From the NCBI RefSeq assembly GCF_003711265.1, contig NZ_CP024634.1:2666001-2730000 (forward strand): 64,000 bases of DNA, given 5' to 3'. Positions within the stretch are counted from its first letter, which is position 1. Each line of letters starts with the position of its first letter. A model generated the notes under the pieces. That model ran no database searches and had not been told where the DNA came from. It saw only the letters and a list, made by a program, of their open reading frames with translations. This document shows, one piece after another, positions 39,099 to 57,892 of the stretch. Source of the stretch: Bathymodiolus thermophilus thioautotrophic gill symbiont. Its GTDB lineage: Bacteria > Pseudomonadota > Gammaproteobacteria > PS1 > Pseudothioglobaceae. The translations under genes were made by a program, and so were the position numbers.

Positions 39099-40325
39099 AT
39101 GACAGCACTCATACAGCCAAAAACAATTAAAGAAACAAGATTGCCTCCCATTTTAAAATGGGCTGGTGGCAAAGAACAAGAGCTTAAATATATTCACCCT
39201 GCAATGCCTAAAAAAATCAATAACTACCATGAGCCTTTTGTTGGTGGGGGTGCTGTATATTTTTCACTTCAAGCAAAAGAGATGTTTATCAATGATAAAT
39301 CTCACGAGTTAATACACCTTTACAAAGCTATTAAAAAGCAAGATGAAGATTTTTTTAGTGTTGTAAATGAAATTCTCCATAATTGGGAATTACTTGAAAA
39401 AATTGTAGAAAAAAACAAAAATATTTTTATTGAAACATATCTTAATTTTTCACAAAAAAAAATGTCAGAACAAGAGGTAGATAATTGGTTGTCATCTTTT
39501 GTATTGCTACATTCACAAGAATTTAACGGGATGTTTAGCACCTCTTTTAATGTTAATATTGATAACTTTCTAAAAGAAATAAAAAAGAATTTTAAAAGTA
39601 AAATAAAGAGAATGAAAAAAATCGAAAAGGAGAGAGGGAAACTCCCTGAAAAAGATATTTTAGACAATATGGAGGCATCATTAAAAAGTGCTTTTTATAT
39701 GCACTTTAGACATCTGTATAACAATATAGAGCAATATAACATCTCTCATAGTTTTGTGGTTGCTATATTTTTCTTTATAAGAAACTATGCTTATAGTGGT
39801 ATGTTTAGATATAACAAAAGTGGTGGATTTAATGTGCCATATGGTGGCATAGGTTACAACAGAAAGAACTTAGCTAAAAAAGTGAATTACCTTCAATCAG
39901 AAGAACTTGTAATGCACTTGCAAAAGACAATTATTGATAACTTGGATTTTGAAGATTTTTTCAAAAAAAACAAACCAAAAAAAGATGATTTTATTTTTTT
40001 AGACCCACCTTACGATAGCGAGTTTAGTACCTATGCTAAGAATAAGTTTACACAAGAAGATCAAAAAAGATTAGCTTCTTATCTTGTGAACAAGTGTAAG
40101 GCCAATTGGATGATGGTGATTAAAAATACTGATTTTATTTATTCACTTTACAACCATGATGGAATTTATATGAGTTCTTTTGATAAAAAATATCTTGTTA
40201 GTTTTCAAAACCGTAATAATAAGAATGCAAAGCATTTAATAATAACAAACTATAAAATCCGATATAATGGTTTTTTATTCAAAATAAAGGATTATAAATG
40301 CCAAGAATATCGGAATCTGATTTAA
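39099..40325 (+). CDS. D12-class (Dam-like) DNA adenine methyltransferase
   Basis: N6-adenine methylase of a restriction-modification system. Seen: ILKWAGGKEQEL (D12 N-terminal motif), YHEPFVGGGAVYFS (AdoMet site), and FIFLDPPYDSEFSTY (catalytic DPPY). 408 aa, about 120 longer than Dam because of a Lys-rich helical insert around residues 150-200 (KKNFKSKIKRMKKIEKERGK). Its stop overlaps the next ORF, so the nuclease genes are in the same operon. Sequence specificity cannot be read; GATC-type is possible but the insert makes this uncertain. Confidence 0.9.
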   Translation: MTALIQPKTIKETRLPPILKWAGGKEQELKYIHPAMPKKINNYHEPFVGGGAVYFSLQAKEMFINDKSHELIHLYKAIKKQDEDFFSVVNEILHNWELLEKIVEKNKNIFIETYLNFSQKKMSEQEVDNWLSSFVLLHSQEFNGMFSTSFNVNIDNFLKEIKKNFKSKIKRMKKIEKERGKLPEKDILDNMEASLKSAFYMHFRHLYNNIEQYNISHSFVVAIFFFIRNYAYSGMFRYNKSGGFNVPYGGIGYNRKNLAKKVNYLQSEELVMHLQKTIIDNLDFEDFFKKNKPKKDDFIFLDPPYDSEFSTYAKNKFTQEDQKRLASYLVNKCKANWMMVIKNTDFIYSLYNHDGIYMSSFDKKYLVSFQNRNNKNAKHLIITNYKIRYNGFLFKIKDYKCQEYRNLI

Positions 40326-40608
40326 TAATACCTGCCCTAAATGCAATGAATGCGTCTCCAAATGGAACAATATCTACTACAGACTTAATTGCTGAACTGA
40401 CCACTTCAATGAACCCAACAGGTGAAGATTTAGACATATTGAAAAATAGAAATGATACTAAGTTTAGTCAAAAAGTCAAAAAGTCAGAAATCTTAAATCG
40501 CATAATGCCATGATAGGATTGGCTAGATATACTCATGCTACCGCACAAGGTGAAAGTGGTACTTTTACAATAACCACTAATGGTCAAACCCATTTGGCAG
40601 ATAATTAG
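40298..40608 (+). pseudogene. Winged-helix protein (HNH-nuclease sibling), frameshifted
   Basis: Starts MPRISESDLIIPALNAM with good similarity to the N-terminus of the HNH gene downstream (RVTEEQLILPALYLM). After FSQKV the frame shifts: an 8-bp direct duplication, GTCAAAAA at 40467-40474 and 40475-40482, causes early stop at 40513. Removing one copy continues as VRNLKSHNAMIGLARYT, later SGTFTITTNGQTHLADN, to a stop at 40608, matching the HNH N-domain to its end at about 100 aa. An 8-bp tandem repeat could also flip back, so it may be reversible rather than dead. Confidence 0.75.
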
Positions 40609-40615
40609 GAAAATT

Positions 40616-41410
40616 ATGGCAAGAGTTACAGAAGAACAACTTATTTTACCCGCTCTTTATTTAATGAATATTTCTCCAACTAAGAGTATTACTACAACTG
40701 AAATGAAAGAAGATTTAGTTGAAATTTTTAAACCAACAGGTAAAGATAATGAGTTGGCAGGAACAAGAGGCGACACTCTTTTTACTCAAAAAGTTCGTAA
40801 TTTAAAATCACATGATAAGCTTGAAAAACTAGGATATGCCGTTTATCATGAAAAAATTGATGGTGAGCCAAGTGGAAGATTTGAGATAACAGTAGCAGGG
40901 AGGCAATATTTAGATAAAAACATGGATATTGTTGATTACTTACTTAACAATACTTTTTCATCAGAAGATTTAAAAGTGGCTTTTGCAACTGTTTACAATA
41001 ATAGAGATAAAGTTAAAAAAATAGAAATTTTTGATGAAAATGCAACCGTGGTTGAAGGAACGCAAGCTATTGCTAGAACCAAAGTATATAAACGGTCAAA
41101 TAAATTAAGAAAAAAAGCTATACAATTCTATACTGTTAATGATAGAATTAAATGTCAAGCTTGTTGTTTTGATTTTGAAGAATTTTATGGGGAGTATGGT
41201 AAAAACTTTATAGAGATACATCATCAAAAACCTGTATTCCAATTTGATGGAGATGATTTAGAGAGAACTATTAAAAAAGCCCTTGAAAATGTCATCCCCG
41301 TATGTTCAAATTGTCACAGAATGATACACAGAAGAAGAGATAACCCCCTTACCCTTGATGAATTAAAAGAGTATGTTCGGCAAGATTTAGATTTTTGTAG
41401 TGAAGATTAA
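40616..41410 (+). CDS. HNH restriction endonuclease with N-terminal winged-helix domain
   Basis: Predicted restriction partner of the D12 methylase. Start at ATG 40616 with AGGA five bases upstream; the earlier ATG is in the preceding pseudogene. Residues 1-100 are a winged-helix domain like the sibling (FTQKVRNLKSHDKLEKLGY). Residues 160-250 are the HNH fold: CQACCFDFEEFYGEYG, IEIHHQKPVFQ (His pair) and PVCSNCHRMIHRRRDNP. 264 aa. It could cut unmodified or modified DNA; the adjacency of a methylase favours a type II system. Confidence 0.87.
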   Translation: MARVTEEQLILPALYLMNISPTKSITTTEMKEDLVEIFKPTGKDNELAGTRGDTLFTQKVRNLKSHDKLEKLGYAVYHEKIDGEPSGRFEITVAGRQYLDKNMDIVDYLLNNTFSSEDLKVAFATVYNNRDKVKKIEIFDENATVVEGTQAIARTKVYKRSNKLRKKAIQFYTVNDRIKCQACCFDFEEFYGEYGKNFIEIHHQKPVFQFDGDDLERTIKKALENVIPVCSNCHRMIHRRRDNPLTLDELKEYVRQDLDFCSED

Positions 41411-41762: not shown

Positions 41763-44700
41763 TTAACTCGTAGGCAGTTCAATTAAGACGGGAATAGCAG
41801 GGCAATATAAAGCACAATGCACTGGTATTTTATAAATTTCAGACAGTGCTGTTTTGTAGAATGACAATTGCTTTGTATGTTGATCCTGTTGGCGTTGGAT
41901 AAATTTTTGCAACGGTTCATTGTCCGCAGGCTCGGCAGTTTTAAAGTCAATTATCCATAGCGTGCCTTGATCAATAAACAATCTATCAATAGCAATAGCG
42001 CGCCCATCCACGATAAACTCAGCCTCATTTACAGCACTCTCTCGTGCTTTAAATAGCCAATCAAATTTTGAATCACTTTTAGTATTCTCAAGTAATTTAA
42101 CAATAAACCCTTGCCAGCGCTCAATGTCTTGTGGTGCTGTGCCGATTTCAATCAAGCGATTGCGAATATTCTGCGTGCTTGGCGTGAATAATTGTTGTTC
42201 GTAATATTGATGCACCAGCGAACCCAATGTACTTTTAAATAAACGCTCAAAGTTTTGCTGGTATTGAACAGATTCACCTTGTGTTTGCTCTTTGTTTGTA
42301 GATGCTTGTAATTGGGAAAATCGATGTAGCAAGGGTGTCTTTAGATCGGTTACGGTGTCGGGCGTTGTGTCAATTTTTTCAAAGCGATGCGTGAAAAATG
42401 GCATTAAAAATGCCAACAAAGAATTGCTACTGGCTTTACCAGATTGACTTACTGCACCCAATAAATGTAAATTTGTTTTGGCACGCGTCATTGCTACATA
42501 CAATAAACGCATCGTTTCAAATTTATTTTGTTGCGATTCGATAAATTTCAAATATTCATAAGTGTCACTTTCACGCATATCAAGGGCGGATTTAATCGGT
42601 GCTAACAACAAAGATTGCTGAGGAAATTCACGCAATTGAATAATCGGCGCACTGTCACTCCTAGGCTTTTTACCTAAACTGGGAATAATAACAGTATCAA
42701 ACTCCAGCCCTTTTGATGCATGAATGGTCATTAACTTGACCTGTGCTTTATCGCTGGGCGCATATAGGCTTTCCATTGCACTGGTAATGGCGGATATGTT
42801 AAGATTGTTGTGCTGTTCACAATGATGAATAATTTGCAAAAATTCATCTTTAATCGCCAATTCGGTATTTGATAATGTGGCATTTTCTAACCCCAATTGG
42901 TTGATGGTATGGGTTAGTAATTCAACAAAATTAAAGCGCCCTTGATTATTGACGGCATCTTGTAAACAATGATGCAAATGTTTGGCGCGTTTTTGCCCAT
43001 CTTGACTCAGTTTCTCCAGCATACTGGTATCAACAAGTTGTTGATAAATAACACAAGAATCATCAGCGGATAACACCAACAAATCATTCAAAACAAGCCC
43101 ACACCAAGGCGCACGCAAAATACTTAACCACGCCAATTTATCGCCCAAATGCAACAATGCTTTGGTAAGTGAAAGCAAATCACGGGTTAATAAATGGTTC
43201 TGCAATTTGGTAATCTCAACCGACTCAAAAATAATATTGTCGTCTTTAAGTTGTTGAGAAATATATTCTAAATGTGTCCGAGTGCGCACCAAAACTGCAA
43301 TTGTGCCAGACGCATCTTCTTCTAAAGAGGTTTTGACAATCTTACTCACTGTTTGCGCCTCCAATCCAAATTGGTCGTGAGCAAAAGGATGAAACACAAT
43401 GGCTTGCGCCTGTTCATCGTCTGAGTTTGAGTGCGAATGTGAATAAGAAATTGCCCCTTGATACACATCATTATGCACTGGGAAAATGGCTTGGAAAAAG
43501 TGATTATTACCTTCAACAATGCTTTTTGAAGAACGAAAATTGGTGCTTAATATCAGCGATTTTGGCGCAATATCAGCAATCCCTTGATCTTGTACCTGTA
43601 AAAATAAACCCACCTGCGATTCTCTAAATCGGTAAATTGACTGCATCGGGTCACCCACTAAAAACAAGGTCTTGCCATCCCCTTCTTGCCATTCATTAAT
43701 CAGTTTTTCAATGGTGTTAAACTGCGATGCCGAGGTGTCTTGAAACTCATCAATCAACAAATGCTGAACTTTGTAATCCAAAAATAAAGCAATATCACTC
43801 ACGCCCACAGTCTCATCCAATGCCTGATTAGCATTCAATGCCACTTCGATAAAATCGTGCGCTTGTTCACATTCAAAATGCAAGTTTAATTGTGCCACAC
43901 AAAGTTTTAACACCTTGGCAATCGTTGCCAAAATATCAGATTGTTCTTGCGAAAAAACCACATCAGGCAAAGTATGTAATTGCTTCAATTCCAGTCTTAA
44001 CGCCTCATTAAACAATTCTGCTGGTAATTTCTTTTCCAGAGCCTTGCGCCAACCGCCTGTTTTGGTCAAACAAAATTCAGCAATCAATTTCCATTTTTCC
44101 AAATCCGCACAATCTGCATCAGGCAACGCCGTAACCGTATTAAAATGTAAGTTATTGCTAGACAACATAAGCGCAAAAAAATCCTCACGCAAATGCAATT
44201 CTGCCAAGTTACGCAACCCCTCAAGGCTTTTAATGACAATCGTTTTAGCCGTATTCTGCAACACCTCAGGATCAATCACACCGTCCCTATACAAACGCGT
44301 AAGCCACTGGTCTCGCTTAGACAACATTTGCACCACCAAACTTTCAAATCTCACAACATTATTGTCCAAATGCAACAACAAACTGGCAATTGCCTGCCCA
44401 TATTCCTCATCATCAATCATCAACAATGTCTGCCCAGCCGCCTCTTTATAAGCATTCTCACGCACCCATTGATCTGCCATAATTTGGCGTGGAACCAACT
44501 GGTCTGGCAAGGGAAAACGATTGGTAATCAAACTATAAAGCCCATCAATCGTTGAAATTTTCAAACGCTTTGGATTTTGCAACAACTGCCAATCTAAATC
44601 CTCTGAACGCTGCATAACACGAAGTGCCAAATCATAAGTTATCTGCTTATGCGCCGCCTCTGGCCGTGGGTCAAAACTGGATTTCAATGCCAACAAAACC

Positions 44701-44891
44701 CGCTGCGTCATTTCTGCAACCGCCTTATTTGTAAAAGTCATTGCAATAATATTCTCAGGCACCTCACAACTCGTTAATAACTTCAAATATCGTTGCGTCA
44801 ATAACTCCGTCTTCCCCGAACCCGCAGGTGCTTGAATGATAAAAGACTGGCTAATGTCTAAGGCTTGTTGGCGTTGGGTTAAATCGTTCAT
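41763..44891 (-). CDS. AddA-like helicase-nuclease (UvrD superfamily)
   Basis: Double-strand-break processing enzyme or defence helicase. Seen: Walker A QAPAGSGKTELLTQRY at residue 18, AMTFTNKAVAEM (motif Ia), LIDEFQDTS (motif II), LVGDPMQSIYRFR (motif III), MTIHASKGLEFDTVIIP (motif V) and MRLLYVAMTRAK (motif VI); C-terminal PD-(D/E)XK nuclease seen as AIDRLFIDQGTLWIIDFKT. 1042 aa, in the range of AddA/RecB-type single proteins. No AddB/RecC gene is adjacent. Overlaps RloB-like gene by 4 bases. Could be chromosomal repair; its coupling to a defence pair makes either reading possible. Confidence 0.9.
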   Translation of the reverse strand: MNDLTQRQQALDISQSFIIQAPAGSGKTELLTQRYLKLLTSCEVPENIIAMTFTNKAVAEMTQRVLLALKSSFDPRPEAAHKQITYDLALRVMQRSEDLDWQLLQNPKRLKISTIDGLYSLITNRFPLPDQLVPRQIMADQWVRENAYKEAAGQTLLMIDDEEYGQAIASLLLHLDNNVVRFESLVVQMLSKRDQWLTRLYRDGVIDPEVLQNTAKTIVIKSLEGLRNLAELHLREDFFALMLSSNNLHFNTVTALPDADCADLEKWKLIAEFCLTKTGGWRKALEKKLPAELFNEALRLELKQLHTLPDVVFSQEQSDILATIAKVLKLCVAQLNLHFECEQAHDFIEVALNANQALDETVGVSDIALFLDYKVQHLLIDEFQDTSASQFNTIEKLINEWQEGDGKTLFLVGDPMQSIYRFRESQVGLFLQVQDQGIADIAPKSLILSTNFRSSKSIVEGNNHFFQAIFPVHNDVYQGAISYSHSHSNSDDEQAQAIVFHPFAHDQFGLEAQTVSKIVKTSLEEDASGTIAVLVRTRTHLEYISQQLKDDNIIFESVEITKLQNHLLTRDLLSLTKALLHLGDKLAWLSILRAPWCGLVLNDLLVLSADDSCVIYQQLVDTSMLEKLSQDGQKRAKHLHHCLQDAVNNQGRFNFVELLTHTINQLGLENATLSNTELAIKDEFLQIIHHCEQHNNLNISAITSAMESLYAPSDKAQVKLMTIHASKGLEFDTVIIPSLGKKPRSDSAPIIQLREFPQQSLLLAPIKSALDMRESDTYEYLKFIESQQNKFETMRLLYVAMTRAKTNLHLLGAVSQSGKASSNSLLAFLMPFFTHRFEKIDTTPDTVTDLKTPLLHRFSQLQASTNKEQTQGESVQYQQNFERLFKSTLGSLVHQYYEQQLFTPSTQNIRNRLIEIGTAPQDIERWQGFIVKLLENTKSDSKFDWLFKARESAVNEAEFIVDGRAIAIDRLFIDQGTLWIIDFKTAEPADNEPLQKFIQRQQDQHTKQLSFYKTALSEIYKIPVHCALYCPAIPVLIELPTS

Positions 44892-45478
44892 TTTATCTGT
44901 TTTAAGTAGTCTATTAATTCATCCACATTGGTATGCGGATTATGCTTTGCATTTTGACATGCGATTGATACTTTATCTTGTAAGTTGTTAAAAATATTTT
45001 CCGACTTGTCATAATTGGGAAAATGTTGTTTAAACTTTTTATCTTTTTTAAGATCGTCAAAATTACTAAATGGTTTATCGGTTTTTACAAAATGCAGTAG
45101 CAACCAAAACTCAAAACAAGGCTCTGAAAAAGCATAATAATAAGTATTCTTGGGTGTTGCTTGGTCAATATGGCTTTTTGTTTGTTGATATTTTGCATGC
45201 CCATCTTTGTCGAAAACACAATACACCCTGTCAAAGGGGTTTCCTTGTTTTTTAGACGCTCTATAAAGTTCTTTTGCTCTGTTAAATAAACTATCAGGCG
45301 TTGTTTGTTTAATGTCTAATATTTCAATATTAACCGTGCTTAATTTTAAATATCCAATCAATTCCTTAAAGTAATTAACTTCAGTTTTACCCTCACAAAC
45401 AATCAAAACTCTATCATAATCTTCTTTTGTTGGGGGCTCCCTAAAGTTAAAACCAGTCTTGATTCTGCATTTTGCCAT
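44888..45478 (-). CDS. RloB-like Toprim protein
   Basis: 196 aa. Toprim/RloB features: VLIVCEGKTEVNYFKEL (Glu) and VYCVFDKDGHAKYQ (DxD-type acidic). The rest, PCFEFWLLLHFVKTD and SENIFNNL, resembles RloB proteins that pair with ATPases of the RloA/OLD type in restriction-linked operons. It follows the RloA-like gene by one base and overlaps the AddA-like gene. Predicted nuclease or abortive-infection effector. The family function is not settled. Confidence 0.84.
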   Translation of the reverse strand: MAKCRIKTGFNFREPPTKEDYDRVLIVCEGKTEVNYFKELIGYLKLSTVNIEILDIKQTTPDSLFNRAKELYRASKKQGNPFDRVYCVFDKDGHAKYQQTKSHIDQATPKNTYYYAFSEPCFEFWLLLHFVKTDKPFSNFDDLKKDKKFKQHFPNYDKSENIFNNLQDKVSIACQNAKHNPHTNVDELIDYLKQIK

Positions 45479-45479
45479 A

Positions 45480-46724
45480 TTATTGTTTTAAATAGGGTAC
45501 GGCACCATAACGACCAGAAAGATAAGCGCTTTCCAAATTGTCCACGCCCTTTCTAACCTTAAAATCAGCAAGTGAAAAAACTTTCGTTGCATTATTTTCC
45601 TTTTCACAAAACCACACTTGATCTTTTCTAAAGGTATCTTGATTAAGTAATGATGTCTCATGGGTAACAAAAATAAGTTGTGCAGCGTTTTTATTAATCT
45701 CTGGATTGTGAAACATGCTCACTAAATACGCCACCAACTTTGGGTGCAAACTGTTATGCAACTCGTCCATTACTAGACAATAACCATTTTCCAATACATC
45801 TAACCATGGCCCCACAAGCCTAAATAGTTTTTGTGTGCCATTTGATTCTTGATCTTCAAAATCAAAAGACACCATGCTGCCATCATTGGAAATATGTTGC
45901 GTCTCCACCTTAAAATTCTTAAATTTTGACGCATCCAAATTCTTTTCTTTTAAAATTTTCTTAAATTCATCAGGGATTGTTTCTTCATCTACTTTTTCCT
46001 CAAACACAGAGAAACCCTCAATATTAATATCAGCTGCCTGCATGAATTCTAAAATTCCTCGCTTATTTCCTTGACTTTCATTTGCCTTGAGGCAAGTAAA
46101 GTTAAAATTCAAGGGCTCTTTATACATATCTTTTAACTTGTTGATAGCAGAAAAAACAATTGACAATAATTCGCTATTGAATTGCACAGCAGTTGACAAA
46201 AACAAAGAGTTGTCTTTGGTGCTGTCTTGCCAAATTTTCTTCTTGCCTTTAAGTCCACTCATTACCCCCCATTGAGTGGTAGATTTCCTGTCAATTAAAT
46301 TTTGTGGACTGCCTTTTGGATATTGATACAACCATTCATCAATAATCTTTTCTTGAGTAGCAGAAAAACCATACACATAACGGATTCCGCCATCAATCAA
46401 ATCTAGTTCAAACTCTGTAGGTTGTCCAACACTTTCTTTGGAAAGTAAAAAAGGCTCAATATTTTTAACGCCTTGATTCGGCTGGTAACCAAAGGAATCA
46501 TCAATAATATTCAACATAGCCCCCAAAGCCCATACCAAGTTAGATTTACCGCTAGCATTGGCACCATAAATCACAGCACTATTAAGCACTTCAAGGGTTT
46601 TACCTGTAGATAACTCAACCGTTGTAAAGTTGTTTTCCAGTTCGTTCTTTTTGGTTTTTAACAAGCTAAGCGTTTGCTTTTCTTTGATTGAGCGAAAGTT
46701 AGTAATGCTAAATTCAAGCAACAT
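45480..46724 (-). CDS. RloA-like AAA15 ATPase
   Basis: SMC/ABC-type ATPase. Seen: FSITNFRSIKEKQTLSLLK at the start, Walker A IYGANASGKSNLVWALG, a long middle domain, Walker B CLVMDELHNSLHPKLV and LIFVTHETSLLN. 414 aa. With the RloB-like partner it forms the ATPase-Toprim pattern shared by OLD-, PARIS- and RloAB-type systems, often anti-phage. Sensing and effector functions are likely divided between the two proteins. Confidence 0.87.
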   Translation of the reverse strand: MLLEFSITNFRSIKEKQTLSLLKTKKNELENNFTTVELSTGKTLEVLNSAVIYGANASGKSNLVWALGAMLNIIDDSFGYQPNQGVKNIEPFLLSKESVGQPTEFELDLIDGGIRYVYGFSATQEKIIDEWLYQYPKGSPQNLIDRKSTTQWGVMSGLKGKKKIWQDSTKDNSLFLSTAVQFNSELLSIVFSAINKLKDMYKEPLNFNFTCLKANESQGNKRGILEFMQAADINIEGFSVFEEKVDEETIPDEFKKILKEKNLDASKFKNFKVETQHISNDGSMVSFDFEDQESNGTQKLFRLVGPWLDVLENGYCLVMDELHNSLHPKLVAYLVSMFHNPEINKNAAQLIFVTHETSLLNQDTFRKDQVWFCEKENNATKVFSLADFKVRKGVDNLESAYLSGRYGAVPYLKQ

Positions 46725-46787
46725 AATTGATAAAAATATAAAACAAAGTTTATATTTTGACAGTTTTTGTCAAAAAGTCAAGTTTAT

Positions 46788-46967
46788 TTATATTTTATTA
46801 GGCACAAACACACTTAATAATCCCAAACCGTTTGCCAATATTTGGGCAATTATAAGCACTATGTTTGCAATTTCTATATTTGAATTAGAATATAACTGTG
46901 AAAATTACTGACTAAATCACGCAAACAATAGATAGCATCTAATTCGTAATCAAGGGCGTTTTTTGAT
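46788..46967 (-). pseudogene. Degraded duplicate of argS 3' end
   Basis: Minus-strand translation gives ALDYELDAIYCLRDLVSNFH then later [19 protein letters not shown] and stop, a clear relic of the C-terminus of the intact ArgS at 48665-50362 ([38 protein letters not shown]). Internal stop and deletions are present. It lies between the RloA-like gene and the DUF4276 gene; the last codons of the DUF4276 gene read into it. Confidence 0.88.
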
Positions 46968-47576
46968 AGCGTTGGATGAAATCGTTCCAAGGCTTTCTAG
47001 TTGCGTCAACCAAGCATCAAAACCTTGGCATTTTTTTCGTATTTCTGTTAGCCCAATTTTTTTAAGAATATTCGGTGCATGTGTTGTTTTAATATATGTA
47101 CAATGCTCTCCAATTCTTTTAGAAGGTGCAGTTTCTTTTGAATTATTAATTGTTTCTATGTTGCCAAACTCATTTAGAATACTATCAATCCAATTTTTAT
47201 ATGTATTTAACCCATCTGCCATTTTTTCACTATCACTAAACAATAATGCCTCAAATTCATACATTTGGATATAGGGGATAATCTTATCTCTTTGTGTTTC
47301 TTTGATCTTGTTTTTAATCTTATCCTCTAAACTTTCTTTAGTTTCGTTACCCCCTAACCCTTTCTTCTTAAAACCATAAAAATCATAAAAAGTCGTTATG
47401 TGATCATACTTATAGATCAAATCATTAAGTTTTGTTTCAATCCTATCAAGCCCAATCTTGCCCTTCATATTCTGCACAAAAACAAAAATACCAAGGTCTG
47501 CCAAATGTGGGACAATAACTTCTTTTATAAATTTATATTCTGAATGACCTTCTACTGAAATCAACAACCTTACCAT
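46950..47576 (-). CDS. DUF4276-type Toprim protein
   Basis: 208 aa. LLISVEGHSEYKFIKEVIVP (Toprim Glu) and TFYDFYGFKKKGLGG, PYIQMYEFEALLFSD (acidic residues) match the DUF4276 Toprim-like family, partner of AAA ATPases in defence loci. It overlaps the ATPase gene by 7 bases. The C-terminus (AIKKRP) extends into the argS relic, so the natural end may have been altered by the insertion. Second ATPase-Toprim pair in the island; not closely similar to the RloB-like gene. Confidence 0.82.
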   Translation of the reverse strand: MVRLLISVEGHSEYKFIKEVIVPHLADLGIFVFVQNMKGKIGLDRIETKLNDLIYKYDHITTFYDFYGFKKKGLGGNETKESLEDKIKNKIKETQRDKIIPYIQMYEFEALLFSDSEKMADGLNTYKNWIDSILNEFGNIETINNSKETAPSKRIGEHCTYIKTTHAPNILKKIGLTEIRKKCQGFDAWLTQLESLGTISSNAIKKRP

Positions 47577-48661
47577 TTTGGCTCACCGCCCAACAAGCCT
47601 TCACTCCAAGCCTCCCCAACTTGATAAGTTTCAATCCAGTCTTTAAAATATTTTTCTTCCAACCTTTTAAGTTTGGACTCACCATTTTCATAATTCACTA
47701 CAATAAAATCATCAGGTTCAAAATAATTGGCCAATTCAACAGATTGGGTAGAAATGATGACTTGCGCCCCATCATTGGCAATGGCTTGAATAATTTCTGA
47801 CAACACCGCAATTGCTGTTGGGTGTAACCCAATTTCTGGCTCATCCAGCACAATGGTACTAGGGCGTAATCCTTTAGGTTGTAAAAATAGGGTTGCCATA
47901 CAAATAAAACGGGCTGTGCCATCGGATAAGGTTTGGGCTGAAAACCCTAAATTGCTCAAATCATTTTTATGTTGCCAACGCAGCAAAACATTTTCATCTT
48001 GAATATTGAAATCAAAATCTTGAAAATAGGGGGCAACGGTTTGCACTGCCTGGACTATGTTTTTATAGTCTTGTGAAAAATTGTTTTTTAAAGAATATAA
48101 AAAAGGTGCTAGATTAGAGGCAAAACTGTCTAAAAATTTATTTTCCCCTATGTTTTGGAAGGATTTGAATTTGGCTGTAGAAGAGGTATCGTGAAAATGA
48201 TATAACTTACATTGTTTTAAATATTCTCTTGAATATTCAACAATTGGCTGTCGATTATTTTTAATGTCACTCTCTAAAGCATTCTGACTTATCACCCTAT
48301 ATGGTTGAGTATATTTTTCGCTACCATTCCAATAACCCTCGTCATGCCAAATAAATAAAGTATCTTTTTCGTTGTCTTTTATCAAAGAAATACGGTATCC
48401 ATTATCTCTTAACTCTAAATCAATTGTTATCTCATCAGTTATTTGATTACCAAAATGTAAAAATCTCTCAGAGCCGCCATTTTGTTTAATATAAGTTTGC
48501 AGTCTTTGGGTGTTAATGTTTTCAAGCAGCCTAAAAATAGAAATAAAATTACTCTTGCCTGCGCCATTCGCACCAATCAAAACATTAATCGGCTTCATCT
48601 CTAAATCCAATTCTTTAATAGACTTAAAGCCTGTAATTTTAATGTTTGATAAATTGCCCAT
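47570..48661 (-). CDS. AAA21 ATPase, partner of DUF4276 protein
   Basis: ABC-like ATPase: IKITGFKSIKELDLEMKP, Walker A IGANGAGKSNFISIFRL, signature-like AQTLSDGTARF, Walker B STIVLDEPEIGLHPTA and VIISTQSVELANYF. 363 aa. Starts 3 bases after the argS stop. The module ATPase-DUF4276 lies between intact argS and a relic argS end, so it was inserted at this site. Expected anti-phage or anti-plasmid function by family. Confidence 0.87.
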   Translation of the reverse strand: MGNLSNIKITGFKSIKELDLEMKPINVLIGANGAGKSNFISIFRLLENINTQRLQTYIKQNGGSERFLHFGNQITDEITIDLELRDNGYRISLIKDNEKDTLFIWHDEGYWNGSEKYTQPYRVISQNALESDIKNNRQPIVEYSREYLKQCKLYHFHDTSSTAKFKSFQNIGENKFLDSFASNLAPFLYSLKNNFSQDYKNIVQAVQTVAPYFQDFDFNIQDENVLLRWQHKNDLSNLGFSAQTLSDGTARFICMATLFLQPKGLRPSTIVLDEPEIGLHPTAIAVLSEIIQAIANDGAQVIISTQSVELANYFEPDDFIVVNYENGESKLKRLEEKYFKDWIETYQVGEAWSEGLLGGEPKW

Positions 48662-48664
48662 AAC

Positions 48665-50362
48665 TCACATTTTATCAGGCGCAGACACACCCAATAACCC
48701 TAAACCGTTTGCCAACACTTGTTTGGTGGCTTGGATAAGTTGTAAACGGCTGGCTTGTAAATTTTTATCTTCAATAAGAAAATCGCAATTGTTGTAATAA
48801 CTGTGGAAATCGCTGGCGAGATCACGCAGATAGTAGGCAACAACATGCGGTTCGTAATTAAGGGCGGCATTTTTAATGGTGTCGGCGTAACGACTGAGTT
48901 GTTTGATGAGGGTTTGTTCGTATTTATCGTTTAGTAAGGCTAAATCTGCTTGGCCGCTGTCTTGGGCTTTGTCCATTACGGAGCAAATGCGGGCGTGGGC
49001 ATATTGGACATAAAACACGGGGTTTTCGTTGCTTTTGGATTTGGCTAAATTTAGGTCAAAGTCCATACTTTGTTCTGATTTGCGCAAAATATAGAAAAAA
49101 CGCGCTGCATCGTTGCCCACTTCCTCACACAATTCTTTCAAGGTAACAAACGAACCACTGCGTGTGGACATCGGTATTTTGACGCCGTCTCGATACAGGT
49201 GAGCGAATTGTACCAGCAAAATTTCCAGTTTATCAGGGTTGTGATTCAGGGCTTTAATGGATGCTTTTACCCGAGCGATATAGCCGTGATGGTCAGCGCC
49301 CCAGATGTTGATAATTTTGTCATAACCTCGTTCAAACTTCTCAAGATGATAGGCAATATCAGAGGCAAAATAAGTGTGCATACCGTTATCACGCACCACA
49401 ACACGGTCTAAATCATCGCCAAAATCGGTGGTTTTAAACCAAAGTGCGCCTGCTTTTTCGTAAATCTGCCCTGAGTCTTGTAATTTTTTCACCGTTTTTT
49501 CACTCAAGCCACTGTCCACTAAAGATTGCTCACAAAACCATTGCTGATATTCGACGCCAAACTCCGCCAAATCGGTTTTAATGCCACTTAAAATATCATT
49601 AATTGCCAAATCAAAGATTTTTTTATAATCACCACCCAATTGCGATTTACAATTAGCAATCAAACCATCAATGTGTTTTTCTTTGTCCCCACCCTCTTTT
49701 TCATCCTGACAAACGCCAGCAAAAATATCCTTTTTTTCAACACCCCTAATTTTTTTAGCAATATCAAAAATATAATCCCCCTGATAGCCATTATCTGGAA
49801 ATTTATCCGTCTCTACATAACGCAAATAAACCGAAGTCGCCAAAATATCCATCTGCCGACCCGCATCATTCACATAATATTCATTATCAACCGCAAACCC
49901 TATCGCCCGCAACAGATTGGCAACACTCGCTCCATACGCCGCCCCCCGACCATGCCCCACATGCAATGGACCTGTCGGATTAGCAGACACAAACTCCAGC
50001 AACACCCGCTGTCCCTCGCCCACATTTGACAAACCATAATCTGCCCCCTGCTCAATAATACGATTAACAACCGACGCATTAGACCCCTGCGACATAAAGA
50101 AATTAATAAACCCCGGCCCCGCAATTTCAATTTTATCCACTGCCGAAGTATCCGGAAAATTCGCCTTAATCTGCTCTGCCAACACGCGTGGCGTACATTG
50201 CGCCTGTTTCGACAACACCATGGCAATATTAGAAGCAAAATCCCCTTGCGTCTTGTCTTTAGAATGATCAAGCCGCACAGCCTCAGGCACACTTTCCAGC
50301 ACGCCTTTATCCACCAATACGGTTAACGCTTGCTTTAACAGGGTTTGCAGTTCTTGTTTCAT
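48665..50362 (-). CDS. argS: Arginyl-tRNA synthetase
   Basis: Charges tRNA-Arg. Seen: N-terminal additional domain ([15 protein letters not shown]), HIGH motif within [32 protein letters not shown], the KMSKS-like region [14 protein letters not shown], and the anticodon-binding C-terminal domain ending [13 protein letters not shown]. 565 aa. Housekeeping gene embedded in defence genes: its start overlaps the mcrC stop by 4 bases and its stop is 3 bases from an ATPase gene. Confidence 0.97.
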
Positions 50363-51636
50363 AATACTTTCTCTAAACTAAAGTCTGTTATTTTATCATC
50401 ATCAATCGGAAAAGGCACCACACCTAATTGTAAAGTTTTATCAAATTTAAACCCAAAAGGTTGGCTAAATTTACGCCATTGTGGATAAATTAAGAATACT
50501 TTTGACACGCCATATTTTTTACCATAAGCAAACAATTGATACACATCACTTTGGCTAATGCCTTTTTTCTTATCTAGATTGCCATTTTTATAAACCTGAT
50601 TTTCGTCAATCAGTTTCCATTTTGTATCAAGAATATATGCCAGATCGCCATTTTCAACAATGGCTATATCGGGTTTCAAATTAAATGCTTTTGGCGTTTC
50701 TGATAAAGATTTGCTTGATATTTGCACTTTTAAACTGTATTTTTTACGCAATATCTTAACCACATACCTTTCAAACAACACCTCCATCGGCAATAAAAAC
50801 GAAATCCCAGCGTTGTTGTCTTTCAGCGTAAAAGGACTTTGCTGATTCAAAATCAACTTCAACCACGGCAAAACACTTTGATAATAATTCAGCGCCCGAC
50901 TGTTTGACCATTTGAAAAAATCATCTTGATAATTTGCCGATAACGGCACTTCGTCAAAAAAGGTTAAAAACCGTTTGACTAATTTTTGATTTTGATTGTC
51001 GTTACTCCATTTTAAAACCTGCATTAATGCCGAATGAATAAGGCGATTTTCTGCCCTATCAGGCGAAAAAACATCATATTCAATAGAAAATAAATGTTGC
51101 TTGTGTGGCGGTTCGTTAAGTTGCTTATGCGTTTGCAATTGCCCTTTTAAAAACTTTTCTTGTGCCTGAATTCTAGAATAATCCTGACGCACCCCTTGTT
51201 TAACAATCCCATCCACACAATCCAAAAACCAACCGATTAAGACCTCTGACAAAGGCTGGTTCTTAATTTGTAAATCCGCTTCTGTGCTTTTTATAAAGGG
51301 TAAATTATGCACAACCTTTAACATTTTTGTTAAAGTTTTACGGCTTTTTTCCGCATCTGCATCCTCACTTGTTTTAGGTAAAATTTCAATTTGAGTGCCA
51401 TCTGGCGTGGTGATAACGCCGACAAAATTTTGAACCTTTAAAACTTTTGAATTTTTAAACTTTAAAAACCTATCTTCTTTATTGTCCGAATCAGCAAATT
51501 TTTCTAAATTTTCCCAAGCGTCTTTATTGAGATAAATTCTATCAATATTTTCACACTTATTCACATCACCCAAATGAATTTCACCCCATTCACGAATAAC
51601 CAGCAGTTTTTTGTCACTGCTCATCTTTATTGACAT
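50359..51636 (-). CDS. mcrC: McrC-like nuclease subunit of McrBC system
   Basis: Endonuclease partner of McrB. Seen: N-terminal [15 protein letters not shown] and [18 protein letters not shown] typical of McrC, middle QYDV-rich region, and C-terminal PD-(D/E)XK core [21 protein letters not shown]. 425 aa counting from ATG 51636, with ATG 51624 an alternative. Overlaps the small ORF upstream and argS downstream. With McrB it should restrict modified DNA. Confidence 0.9.
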
Positions 51637-51776
51637 TCAGGCAAATTTTGCGCTTCAATTCTAACCACTTTTTTGGTTTCTTCGTCCCAAACCACTGCGT
51701 AATGCCCCAAGGCTTTTTTTAATGCCAAAACTTTATTAACGCCTGCAATAATAGTAAATTTTGGGCTGTCATTCAT
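51627..51776 (-). CDS. 49-aa ORF coupled between mcrB and mcrC
   Basis: Starts ATG 51776, overlapping the mcrB stop by 8 bases, and stops at 51627, overlapping the mcrC start by 10. Protein: MNDSPKFTIIAGVNKVLAL then HYAVVWDEETKKVVRI, ending PECQ. The two-sided overlaps and protein-like composition support expression. No family recognised. Could be a regulator of the translation of mcrC or a small subunit. Confidence 0.65.
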   Translation of the reverse strand: MNDSPKFTIIAGVNKVLALKKALGHYAVVWDEETKKVVRIEAQNLPECQ

Positions 51777-53343
51777 CTTTATTTTTATAAATTTGCTGAA
51801 AATCTTCCGCTGTTAATTCGTCAATATTGGCTTTTTTATAACTGTCTTTTTGAATATTTTCATCGTCAAAAAACAACGACTCGTCAACTTCTATTTTTTG
51901 ATAAAACTTACCCTCTTTATCATTCAAAACTTTTCTAATATTCTCAAAATCATCATAAAAATATTCCTCTAAAAGTGGCAAAATTTTATTTTTAAAAACA
52001 TTTCTTAACCCACGCAAATCATCAATACCCATCAAAAATGAATGCCCAATTAAATGCTCTCGGTCGTATAAAATCTCAATCCTTTGATTGATAAAATCTA
52101 AGATTTCACCAACCTTAATACCATCAAAATCACCTTTAACCAAACCAACATCAGGTGCCATTTCAATAAAATCAAACCGTCTTCTAAGCGCCGTATCCAT
52201 CATCGTCAAACTCCTATCCGCCGTGTTCATCGTGCCAATAATATACAAATTATTTGGCACCGAAAAATCTTCTTTTGAATACGGTAATTTAACCGATATA
52301 ACTTCACTTTCCCCTGCTCGCTTGCTCGGCTCAATCAAAGTTATCAACTCGCCAAAAATCCGTGAGATATTACCACGGTTGATTTCATCAATAATTAAAA
52401 CATGGGGTTTTAATACAGATTCTTCCAAAGAATTTTTGTCTATTTTTTCAAAAATATACTTTGCAATCTTTGGTTGATAAGAATAATGTCCATGGGTCTC
52501 ATGAAAATCTTGTCTTTTCAAATATTCCAATATTGAATTTCTTGATAAAGTATATTCTTTATCTTTAGAATTTTTTATTTTTATCTTGTCATCAATATTT
52601 ACTATTTCAAACCCTTGCCCTGTAATTGTTATAAATTGTTGACCGACTGTCAAATAATCATTAAATTCCATATCATCTAACTTAAGCTTTATTTTTTGTT
52701 GCCCCTTTGAATTTTCACAAATTTCTTTAAAAATGCCGCTTTCAATTTCGTAAGACAAATCCCCATCATCAGTTTTTGCTTTCAGTCCTTCTACAAAATC
52801 CTCATAGCTGAAACTTTGATGAAAGGTTACAAATTCAACTTGTGAGCCAAATTTCTCTTTTAACTTGCCAATACTATTAATGTCAGAATTACGATTTTCG
52901 CCTAACAAAATATCAAGTGCCTTATTGACGGTTGAATAAGTTTTTCCTGTGCCAGGTGGTCCGTATAAAATTTGGTTTAGTGGAGAGGCACACATTTTCA
53001 CACCAAGCGTGGAAATAATTTGATTGTCTTCGTAAGTAGATTCTTGCTTGATTTTGTTAATGGTGATATTGCCTCTGTTAGCGAAGAATTCAGAATATCT
53101 AGCAATGGCGCACCTCCATGTTCCATTCCCATTATTTCCAACATTTGCATAGTCCCCATTTAGGCTATATTTTTGAGATATTCCATTAATTTTGTCTTGC
53201 TCTTGGATTTCATAAACATTGATCTCTTCGCCAATCCTTTGAGAATAATCTTGTGATATGCCGTTAATGGCACTTCTATATGAATTAGCAGTATTAGGCC
53301 GCTTACCTATACTAATAAGATAATCGTAAAATTCTTGTTTCAA
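51769..53343 (-). CDS. mcrB: McrB-like AAA+ GTPase of McrBC system
   Basis: NTP-driven motor of McrBC restriction. Seen: N-terminal DNA-recognition part (FYDYLISIGKRPNTANSY and YSEFFANRGNITI; not the typical DUF3578 or YTH type), Walker A YGPPGTGKTYSTV at residue 128, Walker B VLIIDEINRGNISRIFGEL and the McrB signature IGTMNTADRSLTMMDTALRRR. 524 aa. First gene of the mcrB-smORF-mcrC-argS run. The N-domain type suggests a specificity different from E. coli McrB. Confidence 0.9.
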   Translation of the reverse strand: MKQEFYDYLISIGKRPNTANSYRSAINGISQDYSQRIGEEINVYEIQEQDKINGISQKYSLNGDYANVGNNGNGTWRCAIARYSEFFANRGNITINKIKQESTYEDNQIISTLGVKMCASPLNQILYGPPGTGKTYSTVNKALDILLGENRNSDINSIGKLKEKFGSQVEFVTFHQSFSYEDFVEGLKAKTDDGDLSYEIESGIFKEICENSKGQQKIKLKLDDMEFNDYLTVGQQFITITGQGFEIVNIDDKIKIKNSKDKEYTLSRNSILEYLKRQDFHETHGHYSYQPKIAKYIFEKIDKNSLEESVLKPHVLIIDEINRGNISRIFGELITLIEPSKRAGESEVISVKLPYSKEDFSVPNNLYIIGTMNTADRSLTMMDTALRRRFDFIEMAPDVGLVKGDFDGIKVGEILDFINQRIEILYDREHLIGHSFLMGIDDLRGLRNVFKNKILPLLEEYFYDDFENIRKVLNDKEGKFYQKIEVDESLFFDDENIQKDSYKKANIDELTAEDFQQIYKNKDE

Positions 53344-53529: not shown

Positions 53530-56500
53530 TTAAAACACTGTTAAGTCTTGTGCTATCCATAATTCTGCAGTGGGGGCGTTGATGTTGCTATAAATATCAT
53601 AAGTGATATTACCCTCTGTTTGCATAGAATCCTTGACAAAGGCATAGACCATAACTTCTATATCGACTTTATCACCTGAATTGCCAACAACTTTGAGAGT
53701 GTTGGTTTCACTGGAAATATCCAGTAAGTCATTGAGATTAAGTTTCAAGATATTATCACCTGAGCCTGTCAAATCAATGATTTCAATGTCTTGAATGCGA
53801 CCATTGTCTATTTGACTCAGGTCTAGGTTAAGGTTGCTGCCTGCTAATTTTAGTGTATCACTACCGCCACCGCCATCAACACGAGCGAGTAAATGACTAC
53901 CAAGTATACTGCTGTAGAGTTTATCAAGGTTGTTACTATTAATAATAATGGTGTCATCACCTGCGCCTGCATTAAAGACATCGGTGCCACCGCCACCTAT
54001 TAAGATGTTGTCGCCTAAGCCAGCAACAAACAACTCATCAGTAAAAGTGCCTATATATTCGCGCTTGTCTCCTTGGAAATCAATTGCATGGGCAACGGCA
54101 CCTTCGTCCTTACTAATATCTGCTAAATTAACAGCCTTTGTATCGGTTTTTCCAAATACCACATAAGATTTACCTGCGTCGATTCCAGAAGTAACGCCTT
54201 CAATTACAGTGCCAACAATCAAATCATCCAAGCCGTCACCATTGACATCGCCTGCTGAGGAGACTGAGAAGCCACTTTTATTATTAGTACTCTCACTATT
54301 AATAACAAAGCCACCTGTACCGAAGTCTGAGGCTATAGCTGATAAATTAACGGCAGCTCCGTTGGTCTTGCCAAATACCACATAAGATTTACCCGTACCA
54401 GAGCCACCATCAGGATTATAGGCACCAACAATCAAATCATCCAAGCCGTCGCCATTGACATCGCCTGCTGAGGAGACTGAGAAGCCACTTTTATCATTAG
54501 CATTCTCACCATTGATAACAAAGCCACCCACGCCAGAGGCTATGGTAGATAAATTAACAGCAGCTGTGTTATCCTTCTTGCCAAATACCACATAAGATTT
54601 ACCTGCGTTGGAGCCAGAAGCGGAATCTGCCTTATGAGCACCAACAATCAAATCATCCAAGCCGTCGCCATTGACATCGCCTGCTGAGGAGACTGAGTTA
54701 CCGCTATAATCTTGAGCATTCTCGCCATTGATAACAAAGCCACCCATGCCAGAGACTATGGCAGATAAATTAACAGCAGTTGTGTTATCCATCTTGCCAA
54801 ACACCACATAAGATTTACCTGTTAAGAGGGGACCAGCAGTAAGCCTTGCACCTTTAGCACCAATAATCAAATCATCCAAGCCGTCGCCATTGACATCGCC
54901 TGCTGAGGAGACTGAGGAGCCACTTAGATCAAAAGTATTCTCGCCATTGATAACAAAACCGCCCGTGCCAGAGGCTATGGCAGATAAATTAACAGCAGTT
55001 GTGCTACCCTTCTTGCCAAATACCACATAAGACTTACCTGCGTAGGCGGAAGTAACAGTAGATGCATTATCAGCACCAACAATCAAATCATCCAAGCCGT
55101 CGCCATTGACATCGCCTGCTGAGGAGACTGAGGAGCCACTTAGATCAAAAGTATTCTCGCCATTGATAACAAAGCCGCCCATACCAGAGGCTATAACTGA
55201 TAAATTAACGACCGCTCCGTTGGCCTTGCCAAATACCACATAAGATTTACCTGCATTGGAGGCAATAGCACCTGCACTTGGAGAGCCAACAATCAAATCA
55301 TCCAAGCCGTCGCCATTGACATCGCCTGCTGAGGAGACTGAGAAGCCATCTTTATCCACAGCAGCCTCACCATTCATAACAAAGCCACCCGCACTCGTAC
55401 CTAAAGCTATAGCCAATAAACTAACAGTGGTTTTGTCAGTTCTTCCGAATACGACATAAGATTTACCTGCTGCGCCTTCAACCTCATCAACAACAATCAA
55501 ATCATCCAAGCCGTCACCATTGACATCGCCTGCTGAGGAGACTGACCAACCATTCCAAGTGCCAACACTCTGACCAATACTCTGGCCATCAATAACAAAG
55601 CCTTGTGTAGCAGGAGGTCTCACCGATACAGTAACGGCTTGCTCTGTTGCGTTGCCTGCAATATCAGTGGCAATAATGGTAAATGTGTCATCATTATGCA
55701 CTGTCGTTTGTATTGTTTTGTAAGTGACTATTCCAGTATCATCAGTAATTGAAAATTTACTGGTGTTTGCATTTTTTATACTATAAGTGATACGATCTGC
55801 ATCGCCAACGCTTGCTTGGGCGTTATAAACAGTGGTCGTAATAGGGGCGTTAACAAAGATATCGACTGTAGTAGATTGTTGGGCAAATATTGGACTTGTA
55901 GTGTCCACAACAATAGGCGAAATAATTTTAACGATGTCTGAAGCATTACCAGCTATATCAGTTTGTTTAATCTGAATGGCATTAGCACCATAAGTGCCTT
56001 CAACCAGCGTAAAACTACTGCCTTCGCCATTGGTAAAGTTTGTGCCACCATCAACAGAATACTGCCAAGTTATACCTGACTCTAAATCACCAACAGTAAT
56101 CACGCCATCTTTGGTAATATCATCATCCAATGAACCGGTATTTACAAAGGTAAGCTTTGGTGTTACTGGAGAGGTAGCATCCACAACAATAGGCGCAATA
56201 TTAGAGGCGATTGAGACATTGCCAACTACATCAGTTTGCCTAACCTGAATGTCCTTCCTGACATAAGTGCCTTCAGCCAGAGTAAAACTACTGCCTTCGC
56301 CATTAGTAAAGCTAGTACCATGATTAATAGAATACTGCCAAGTTATACCTGACTGTAAATTACCAACAGTAATCACGCCATTTTTGGTAATACCATCACC
56401 CAATAAACCAGTATCTGTAAAGTCAAATGTTGGCATTGTTGGCGCAATTTTGTCAATCGTTACCGCCCTTACTATTTCTTGACCTGTAACATTGCCATCA

Positions 56501-57892
56501 TTGCCAGATAATTTAACAGTAACAATGTAATTACCGTTTTCAAGTTGCGAAGTCCAAGTGTCGTTATTGACTAAAGTCCAAGTGTTGTCGTCATTAATAC
56601 TCGGAAGAAGATTGGCGTCAAGCGTATAAGTAGTATCAGTACCCTCTCGTTTAAAGGTAATACTGGTAATAACAATACTGTTAATATTTATGCCAGTAAC
56701 TGTACCACCCAAAGTAGCCATTGCCAATTCTTCAATATTGATACTATCATTACCACCAATATTATCCCAAGCAACTGTGGTGGATAAAACAAAATCTTTC
56801 ACCGATATAGTAACGAGTTGCTTTGTTTCATTACCTGCAGTATCAGTAGCAATAATGGTAACTTTGTCGTCATCATGTATTGTTGTTTGTTTTTGCTTAT
56901 ATTTTAGTTCACCCCTCTCGCTAATCGTAAATTTGTCTTTTTGATTTCCATCTTCTAAAGCGTAAGTAACTATATTATTGTCTGTTGCTACTGCCTTATA
57001 TATTACTTCTGATGCATCGGTGTTTGTTCTAACACCAACAGTAGTTGAACTGATAAATGAAGGGGCTGTGGTGTCCACAACAATAGGAGAAGTGTTTGTA
57101 ATTTCTGAGACTTTGCCAGTTGCATCAGTTAGTTTAATCTTAATAGCATTGGCGGCATGAGTGCCTTCAACTAGCGTAAAACTATTACCTATACCATTGG
57201 TATAATAAGCGCCACCATCAATAGAATACTGCCAAGTTTCGCCTTCCTTCACGCCACTAACAGTAATCACAACACTGCTGGTAAAGCCACCTGTATCTGC
57301 AAAGGTAAATGTTAGCGGTGTATCATCGTCATTATTATCACTACCACTACTACTAACAACAGCCACAATGGCTGCAACCACAACCGCCGATACAATTCCT
57401 ATATTCGAAGTAACGACATTAAAAAAACTTTGATTGCCACTTGTACGGACTGCACCAGATTCTGTAGAAACAATAGATTGTTCGCCATAAAAATACACCA
57501 CTTGGGTGCCGTCTTCTAAAGTAAAGAAGGCATCAGCAACAATGTGATAAAGCCCACCGTCTTCGGTGGGCAGAGAAACCAAGCAAGACAAATCAGTCTT
57601 GCAAATAGTAAAATAGTTATCAAAGACAATAACGCCTTCTTTTAATGCTACTTCTAAATCATCATCAACCCTTTTGGCAATTAGGCTTGTCTTTTTAGGG
57701 TTGAAATCTTTGGGGTTTAATTGATAAGCGATACCGACTTGAGTCTGAATGTGTTGAATGTCTTTGGTAATAACAATGACTTCTTCATTAAGTTTATTGG
57801 AGGCTTTTTGTGCTTTATTTTGTAGCGTTACAACTTGTTTCTGTGTTAATGTTTGGATATTTTTCTCCCTGTTCCATTTCTTGCAACTCCAT
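53530..57892 (-). CDS. Giant FG-GAP/Ig-like/RTX surface protein with 5' frameshift
   Basis: Large exported protein, about 1450 aa. In order: N-terminal domain (VVTLQNKAQKASNKLNEEV, later DLEVALKEGVIVFDNYF and LEDGTQVVYFYG) like the prefix of type I-secreted adhesins; a hydrophobic stretch (IVSAVVVAAIVAVVSS); several Ig-like repeats (TWQYSVDGGTNFTNGEGSSF, IVVDTTSPI); seven FG-GAP repeats with the calcium loop AGDVNGDGLDDLIV, probably a seven-bladed propeller; one RTX-type GGGGTDVFNAGAGDDTI and a C-terminal domain. The main frame has no usual start codon; ATG 57892 (with AAGG upstream) is off by one base from the main frame, see findings. Likely adhesin or host-interaction factor secreted by a type I system. 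Confidence 0.8.

Follow-up and report, generated by a model that had tools for sequence, protein, structure and literature searches.

The window, i.e., the whole stretch of 64,000 nucleotides that was analyzed, comes from the genome of the Bathymodiolus thermophilus thioautotrophic gill symbiont (G000, a single contig). It contains a run of genes that are all encoded on the minus strand, in the order mcrB-like, mcrC, argS, HEC01A, HEC01B, a scar, RloA, RloB, and addA, with the following features:

51769–53343, minus strand: mcrB-like AAA_5 ATPase (Pfam AAA_5; NCBIfam McrB below its cut-off), the upstream end of the co-directional run.
50359–51636, minus strand: mcrC (PF10117, 300 bits), whose stop overlaps the argS start.
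48665–50362, minus strand: intact argS (TIGR00456, 455 bits, cut-off 262), the left flank of the hotspot.
48665–49015, minus strand: 3' tail of argS (nt 1348–1698), the portion that tends to go with the HEC-01 cassette between species.
47570–48661, minus strand: HEC01A, an AAA_21 ATPase, first cassette (PF13304, 97 bits; PADLOC HEC-01A, E 6e-132).
46950–47576, minus strand: HEC01B, a DUF4276 protein (PF14103, 140 bits; PADLOC HEC-01B, E 4e-57), whose last ~11 codons enter the scar.
46963–46987, minus strand: remnant of an addA start, left half of the joint (21/25 identical to the addA start of the window).
46792–46975, minus strand: argS 3' relic, codons 493–564, right half of the joint (alignment to the intact argS).
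46757–46773, no strand: palindrome TTGACA-N5-TGTCAA upstream of RloA, operator-like by its sequence.
45480–46724, minus strand: RloA/AbiLi ATPase (AAA_21), second cassette (PF13304, 106 bits; PADLOC AbiLi, E 4e-96).
44888–45478, minus strand: RloB/AbiLii (PF13707, 120 bits, cut-off 31.5; PADLOC AbiLii), whose stop overlaps the addA start.
41763–44891, minus strand: addA-like helicase-nuclease, the right flank of the hotspot (UvrD-helicase and UvrD_C; PDDEXK_1 below its cut-off).

The profiles of Pfam, PADLOC, and NCBIfam agree with the gene names of the original prediction (RloA-like, DUF4276, ATPase, argS, and AddA-like), addA being a working label (neither the AddA nor the RecB model of NCBIfam reaches its cut-off). 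HEC01A and HEC01B, an ATPase with its DUF4276 partner, fit the HEC-01 candidate system according to PADLOC and Pfam, and the RloA-RloB pair fits the AbiL type, i.e., an AAA_21 ATPase followed by an RloB family protein, with both Pfam matches over the cut-off. Both cassettes consist of an AAA_21 ATPase and a small partner (RloB or DUF4276), and they are putative anti-phage defence cassettes. RloB has been described as OLD_TOPRIM-related and AbiL as an abortive infection system in the available part of the source (PMC10440598). The predicted structures are of too low confidence to bear on this description (mean pLDDT of 55 for RloB and 46 for HEC01B), and a search of the PDB for sequence relatives of RloB and HEC01B returned none at E 0.01.

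The spacer between HEC01B and RloA had been read in the original prediction as a decayed ArgS C-terminus, and the nucleotide alignment bears this out with a score far over that of shuffled sequence. In a local alignment with 46740–47000 as the query, 46792–46975 matched 48669–48885 of argS with a score of 61.5, while 500 dinucleotide shuffles gave a mean of 15.7 (sd 2.2) and a maximum of 28. The same two blocks were recovered by blastn (53 nt at 83% identity, E 3e-10; 70 nt at 73%, E 2e-5). The relic shows indels as well as stops in the three frames inspected, and thus it is not a gene. In addition, the first ~25 nt of the spacer (46987–46963) match the start of the window's own addA at 21 of 25 positions, and none of 2000 shuffles was as good. 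Directly after HEC01B there is the addA remnant, and then the argS relic, with ~13 nt of overlap resembling both genes; the whole joint of the window comprises ~25 nt plus 184 nt at 46792–46987.

The argS-addA junction was surveyed in 83 genomes of the family, one per species, comprising 12 of the window's genus, 12 of a genus that we call Ruthia-type (the one holding G074 and G075, Ca. Ruthia, and G022 and G077, Ca. Ruthturnera), and 59 others. The relatives include the symbionts of B. brooksi (G004), B. heckerae (G008, BHECKSOX2), and Bathymodiolus sp. 5 South (G006), and Ca. Thiodubiliella endoseptemdiera from Lau (G005). In a tally compiled by hand from the genome comparisons, the junction is empty, with argS directly beside addA, in 57 of the 83 genomes (gap of 0–79 nt between tblastn match ends, within 30 nt in 54 of the 57). 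HEC01AB stands alone in seven (G007, G010, G011, G022, G070, G075, and G089), being broken or decayed in G070 and G075 and having a shortened HEC01A in G010; RloAB stands alone in one (G008); and both cassettes are present in five (G000, G005, G006, G009, and G084). Remnants are found in three more, i.e., a 70-nt HEC-01 deletion scar in G074, an RloB remnant behind the RloA leader palindrome in G073, and a broken HEC01A in G077. The genome G004, with argS, HEC01A, and the start of HEC01B on one contig and RloB-addA on another, probably carries both cassettes; G003 has RloAB-addA, the argS side being missing from the assembly; and eight of the 83 junctions were not assignable to a state. In G007, G010, and G022, which have only HEC01AB, the end of HEC01B leads directly into the addA start and no argS repeat separates the two, and in G008 RloA begins 73 nt past the argS stop; thus, both cassettes occupy one and the same slot. 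The two arrangements that the original prediction had pointed to, argS joined straight to the RloA-like gene (G008) and argS joined straight to the AddA-like gene (the 57 empty junctions), do exist. As to its view of argS as a recurrent landing site, the argS junction is a recurrent site for defence genes in this lineage, with HEC01AB, RloAB, or both in the window's genus and in some relatives.

In the five complete stacks (G000, G005, G006, G009, and G084) the order is always HEC and then Rlo; independent events of a symmetric kind would not be expected to give this. The constancy may reflect either common descent or a constraint, as a leader with a conserved palindrome comes with the Rlo cassette only. 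The palindrome upstream of RloA recurs unchanged in G008 and G009, almost unchanged in G006 and the remnant of G073, and in a looser form in G084. Counted strand-wise, the motif TTTGACA-N5-TGTCA was hit 12 times across the 12 genomes of the window's genus; seven of these hits lie just upstream of RloA in G000, G006, G008, and G009, and the RloA gene of G005 has no exact hit upstream. A promoter upstream of RloA was also considered; the count of promoter-like sites over the locus (44) is near the level of shuffled sequence (34.6 ± 6.3), and thus no RloA promoter is claimed.

Defence genes flank argS on both sides in the window, and the upstream side is a second variable defence position, with mcrBC in the window, G002, G007, and G084, and McrC fragments persisting in G008, G005, G001, and, by eye, G004 (window 50359–53343; L002 1–334; L032 3015–3080 and L031 3139–3231, both oriented; L045 3691–3843). 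The gene directly past mcrB, at 53530–57591 of the window, encodes a large and likely secreted or surface protein that contains seven FG-GAP repeats and weakly matches Ig-like and RTX-type calcium-binding domains. At the other end, between a D12-class methyltransferase gene (39099–40325) and an HNH gene (40580–41410), 40298–40605 holds a diverged partial copy of the N-terminal part of the HNH protein (segments of 44% and 49% identity), possibly another remnant left by the stacking or replacement of a defence gene. In the Ruthia-type genus, five members have their cassettes deleted, broken, or interrupted, i.e., L126 (G074), L131 (G073), L124 (G070), L125 (G077), and L127 (G075). The hosts of Ca. 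Ruthia, Ruthturnera, and Vesicomyosocius are mainly clams, and it looks as if defence decays with the clam-bound life style.

The argS genes of G004 and G008 are 99.3% identical and the ~330 nt upstream nearly so (their addA genes are 81.6% identical), and the two genomes part at the argS stop codon, one continuing into HEC01A (G004) and the other into RloA (G008). Within the Ruthia-type genus, the five species that bear HEC and the five that lack it share 83.8% identity over argS nt 1–1200 and 63.8% over nt 1348–1698. When compared with seven HEC-bearing species of the window's genus, the HEC-bearing Ruthia-type species show 77.5% identity in the tail and 74.4% in the argS body, and the HEC-free ones 63.2% and 74.2%, respectively; the imported tail could sit in either group. 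Over 29 argS sequences, the tail-minus-body identity of HEC pairs and mixed pairs differs by 15.0 points, a value reached in none of 2000 permutations. This set took in 10 of 12 genomes from the window's genus (all but G003 and G009, in which no whole argS was found), 10 of 12 from the Ruthia-type genus (all but G072 and G076), and nine of the 59 others; G089, whose argS is split between contigs, and the second copy of G005 were left out, and 13 sequences were labelled HEC, including those of the deletion scar G074 and the broken G077. When argS was scanned in 11 segments, the last three passed (0/1000 permutations each) and seven of the eight earlier ones failed, the segment 900–1023 also passing with a small effect of 3.5. 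The linkage is carried mainly by the Ruthia-type genus (2/252 label sets as extreme) and is weak within the window's genus alone (9/120). Thus qualified, the final ~350 nt of argS tend to go with the HEC-01 cassette and not with the species, and the core idea of the original prediction, that the argS end travels with the module, is supported by this statistical linkage of HEC-01 to its own argS tail.

The exchanged tails have no fixed border. The best single breakpoints lie at argS nt 1350–1387 in G074, mostly at 1331–1338 in G022 and G077, and, depending on the reference, at 1087–1281 in G070 and G075, so that the span in the Ruthia-type genus is about nt 1090–1390 with most estimates at 1225–1390; in G005 the breakpoint is at ~1456. 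The HEC01A of G006 is closer to that of G022 (85%) than to that of the window (73%). G084 (L128), from another genus, has mcrBC-argS-HEC01AB-RloAB-addA on one 9.4-kb contig, and in quick trees its argS groups with those of the window's genus and most of the Ruthia-type ones (SH-aLRT 99), while its addA groups with another genus (100); it represents either a cross-genus exchange or a chimeric contig. The mosaic of argS extends well beyond the 3' end and across genera, nt 751–975 of the window's argS being 85–93% identical to G006, G012, G022, G070, G073, and G074, with 60–77% at both ends. The tail linkage, weak in the window's genus alone, the variable breakpoints, and the chimeric G084 together support exchange by homologous recombination in the flanks of the junction.

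A fuller version of the joint is preserved in G005, whose order is argS, HEC01A, HEC01B, addA codons 1–165, argS codons 325–565, RloA, RloB, and addA. The join reads GATTATGGCATGCAC, where addA has GATTATGGC and argS has GATAATGGCATGCAC, with an exact 5-nt match, ATGGC, at the crossover. The argS piece on the right agrees with the argS on the left at 478 of 480 nt, and its remaining 3' part agrees at 193 of 244. The addA piece differs from the full addA over the ~40 nt next to HEC01B; past these, the two are ~99% identical save for a single 38-nt deletion. Since the argS and addA copies are near-identical elsewhere, G005 contains two tandem copies of one locus that differ only in the cassette and its immediate edges.

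A scar of 78 nt of argS is kept at the same place in G006 (score of 34 against its own argS, the maximum of 1000 shuffles being 20.5; score of 16.0 against the argS of the window, with 18 of 1000 shuffles as good). Its addA match is weak and elsewhere than that of the window, with 2 to 94 of 2000 shuffles as good over five addA starts (12/2000 against its own addA), and its best matches lie ~40–65 nt inside the gene, unlike the match of the window to the addA start. G000 and G006 both have GAACGATT after HEC01B, which at first suggested a joint common to the two; as GAACGATT belongs to the addA-start match in the window, and the best matches of G006 lie elsewhere and are weak, a common joint is no more than possible. 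The stack of G009 has no scar between the cassettes. The spacer of G084 was rejected as a third scar, since argS is undetectable in it (960/1000 shuffles as good) and its addA match is a weak trace at most (14/1000). That the relic stems from an assembly or chance artefact is hardly credible: nothing specific speaks for it beyond several of the relatives being MAGs, and it is opposed by the shuffle tests of the relic, the addA remnant, and the scars, by the argS scars in two more assemblies (G005 and G006), and by the window's genome being a single contig that matches a published complete PacBio genome; for the relic of the window it is already refuted.

In a tree, the relic groups with the argS of G000, G004, and G008 (support 95/94). 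AU tests of its placement rejected G006 as a partner marginally (p 0.048), and the result for the second copy of G005 was not significant (p 0.159). The relic could not be assigned to an RloA-linked argS allele by shared sites, as 11 of its discriminating sites are shared with the current argS, 11 with the argS of G008 (RloA only), and two with neither. The tree and the AU tests favor more than one stacking event; one old event with later homogenization may also be compatible, given the marginal exclusion of G006 and the non-significant result for the G005 copy.

The original prediction had explained the relic by an element that integrates at a tRNA-related gene: the HEC01AB module would have entered site-specifically at the argS 3' end, bringing a replacement end and displacing the old one. 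In its favor, the relic does copy an argS 3' end, and the HEC-01 cassette is linked to a distinct argS tail. However, the mechanism is not supported, and we consider it very unlikely. No integrase is present among the 20 proteins of the window that were scanned with Pfam, a set covering all the genes from mcrB to addA; a constant crossover with an attachment repeat at the far end was not found, as the breakpoints of the exchanged tail vary and no argS repeat lies beyond HEC01B in the HEC-only G007, G010, and G022; and an insertion into argS alone would not place a piece of addA, longer still in G005, between HEC01B and the relic. Insertion of a module into argS is disfavored because the joint shows a second argS-cassette-addA copy joined on. 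A variant in which HEC01AB entered between argS and an already present RloAB, by homologous recombination in argS and illegitimate recombination on the other side, leaving the host argS end behind and involving no addA, accounts for the relic beside RloA and for the linkage of the argS tail; it leaves the 25-nt addA start (0/2000 shuffles) and the joint of G005 unexplained, and we regard it as unlikely.

The homologies and the joint are shown, as are the linkage of the tail, the more complete joint of G005, and the junctions that are empty or hold a single cassette. On this basis we propose, with a probability of about 0.78, that the relic is the scar of two copies of the locus that were joined in tandem by unequal recombination and then eroded. 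The argS-addA junction would be an integrase-free defence hotspot, at which HEC01AB or RloAB cassettes pass from one strain or species to another by homologous recombination in the core genes on either side, often taking part of the argS 3' end along. In the window's lineage, one such exchange would have misfired: a strain with argS-HEC01AB-addA would have been joined, without a swap, to DNA carrying argS-RloAB-addA, through an unequal, illegitimate crossover at a short match. The product, argS-HEC01AB-addA'|'argS-RloAB-addA, would have kept both cassettes, each with its own flank, and the addA'|'argS joint that separates HEC01B from RloA, being of no use, would have eroded to the present remnant of the window. 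Homologous recombination in the core flanks fits because of the variable breakpoints, the gene-scale exchange between genera, and the lack of an integrase among the 20 proteins, and an unequal crossover that stacks two alleles fits because of the addA'|'argS joint. Homology-facilitated illegitimate recombination is a named process. We infer the direction of time, the unequal crossover, the uptake of DNA, by transformation or otherwise, as the source, and the action of both cassettes against phages. Natural competence was considered as the source of the DNA; the comEC and DprA families are present, yet they are also found in 10 and 11 of 14 control genomes, and thus their presence is no evidence for competence.

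The two copies might alternatively have arisen within one genome, by a tandem duplication of argS-cassette-addA through a short-match crossover, one of the cassettes being replaced later by homologous exchange. The argS copies of G005, 478/480 identical away from the cassette, and its addA starts, which are likewise near-identical, are in line with this order of events, and merodiploids with two different alleles made by transformation are documented in pneumococcus, according to the part of PMC3784515 available. It requires two steps, compared with one for the joining of two conspecific alleles, and the same cassette twice was seen at no compared locus, so that we hold it to be possible, if rather doubtful.

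The stacking of two alleles in tandem may have a further consequence, which we put forward tentatively and consider far from certain: the repeats of core-gene ends might let a lineage add a cassette, and, while the repeats last, drop one, without any mobile element, erosion then locking both in place. If this were true, recombination between the argS copies would remove HEC01AB and recombination between the addA copies would remove RloAB, and fragments of core genes in defence islands would be general fossils of island growth.

How integrase-free defence hotspots are built has been posed as an open question, in the part of PMC10250203 available. At this junction the empty, single, stacked, eroded, and lost states are visible among sequenced relatives, and a step of growth can be read rather than only inferred because the join itself is preserved. 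As a rule for searching elsewhere, defence islands can be screened for pieces of the core genes that flank them. Among the open-access papers covered, on argS as a defence hotspot (where the results are mostly noise from 'ARGs') and on defence or restriction genes in Bathymodiolus symbionts, no title or opening of an abstract describes this locus.

As two-gene systems, HEC01AB and RloAB, known here from their sequence, would not differ in kind from HEC-01 and AbiL/RloAB. In the integrase-free hotspots treated in PMC5635113, homologous recombination in flanking core genes was proposed as a driver, as inferred statistically, and for the core defence hotspots of Pseudomonas (PMC10250203) it was noted that recombination in the flanks would leave no scars derived from mobile elements. 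The present locus has in common with them the variable, often defence-related genes between fixed core genes; unlike in those hotspots, as far as the available parts of both sources describe them, here a scar of core genes records one joining event. In Streptococcus pneumoniae, merodiploids made by transformation carry two alleles of a chromosomal segment in tandem after unequal crossing-over (PMC3784515, from the part available), and in this respect they are alike; their duplications span ~100–900 kb and arise between repeats, whereas here the unit is of ~3 kb (in G005), was joined at a short match, and is eroded in the window. A close parallel in layout is that of the minimal mobile elements of Neisseria, in which, according to the part of PMC3898611 available, whole-gene cassettes, often restriction-modification systems, are exchanged between two conserved genes by homologous recombination alone. 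The hotspot described here also lies between two conserved genes, argS and addA, and holds different whole-gene cassettes in different species; it differs in its host, a mussel symbiont, in that the comparison is between species and not between strains, and in having two stacked cassettes with a fused piece of both flanking genes between them. An integrase-free hotspot of the minimal mobile element type is already known, and it is the scar that is unusual.
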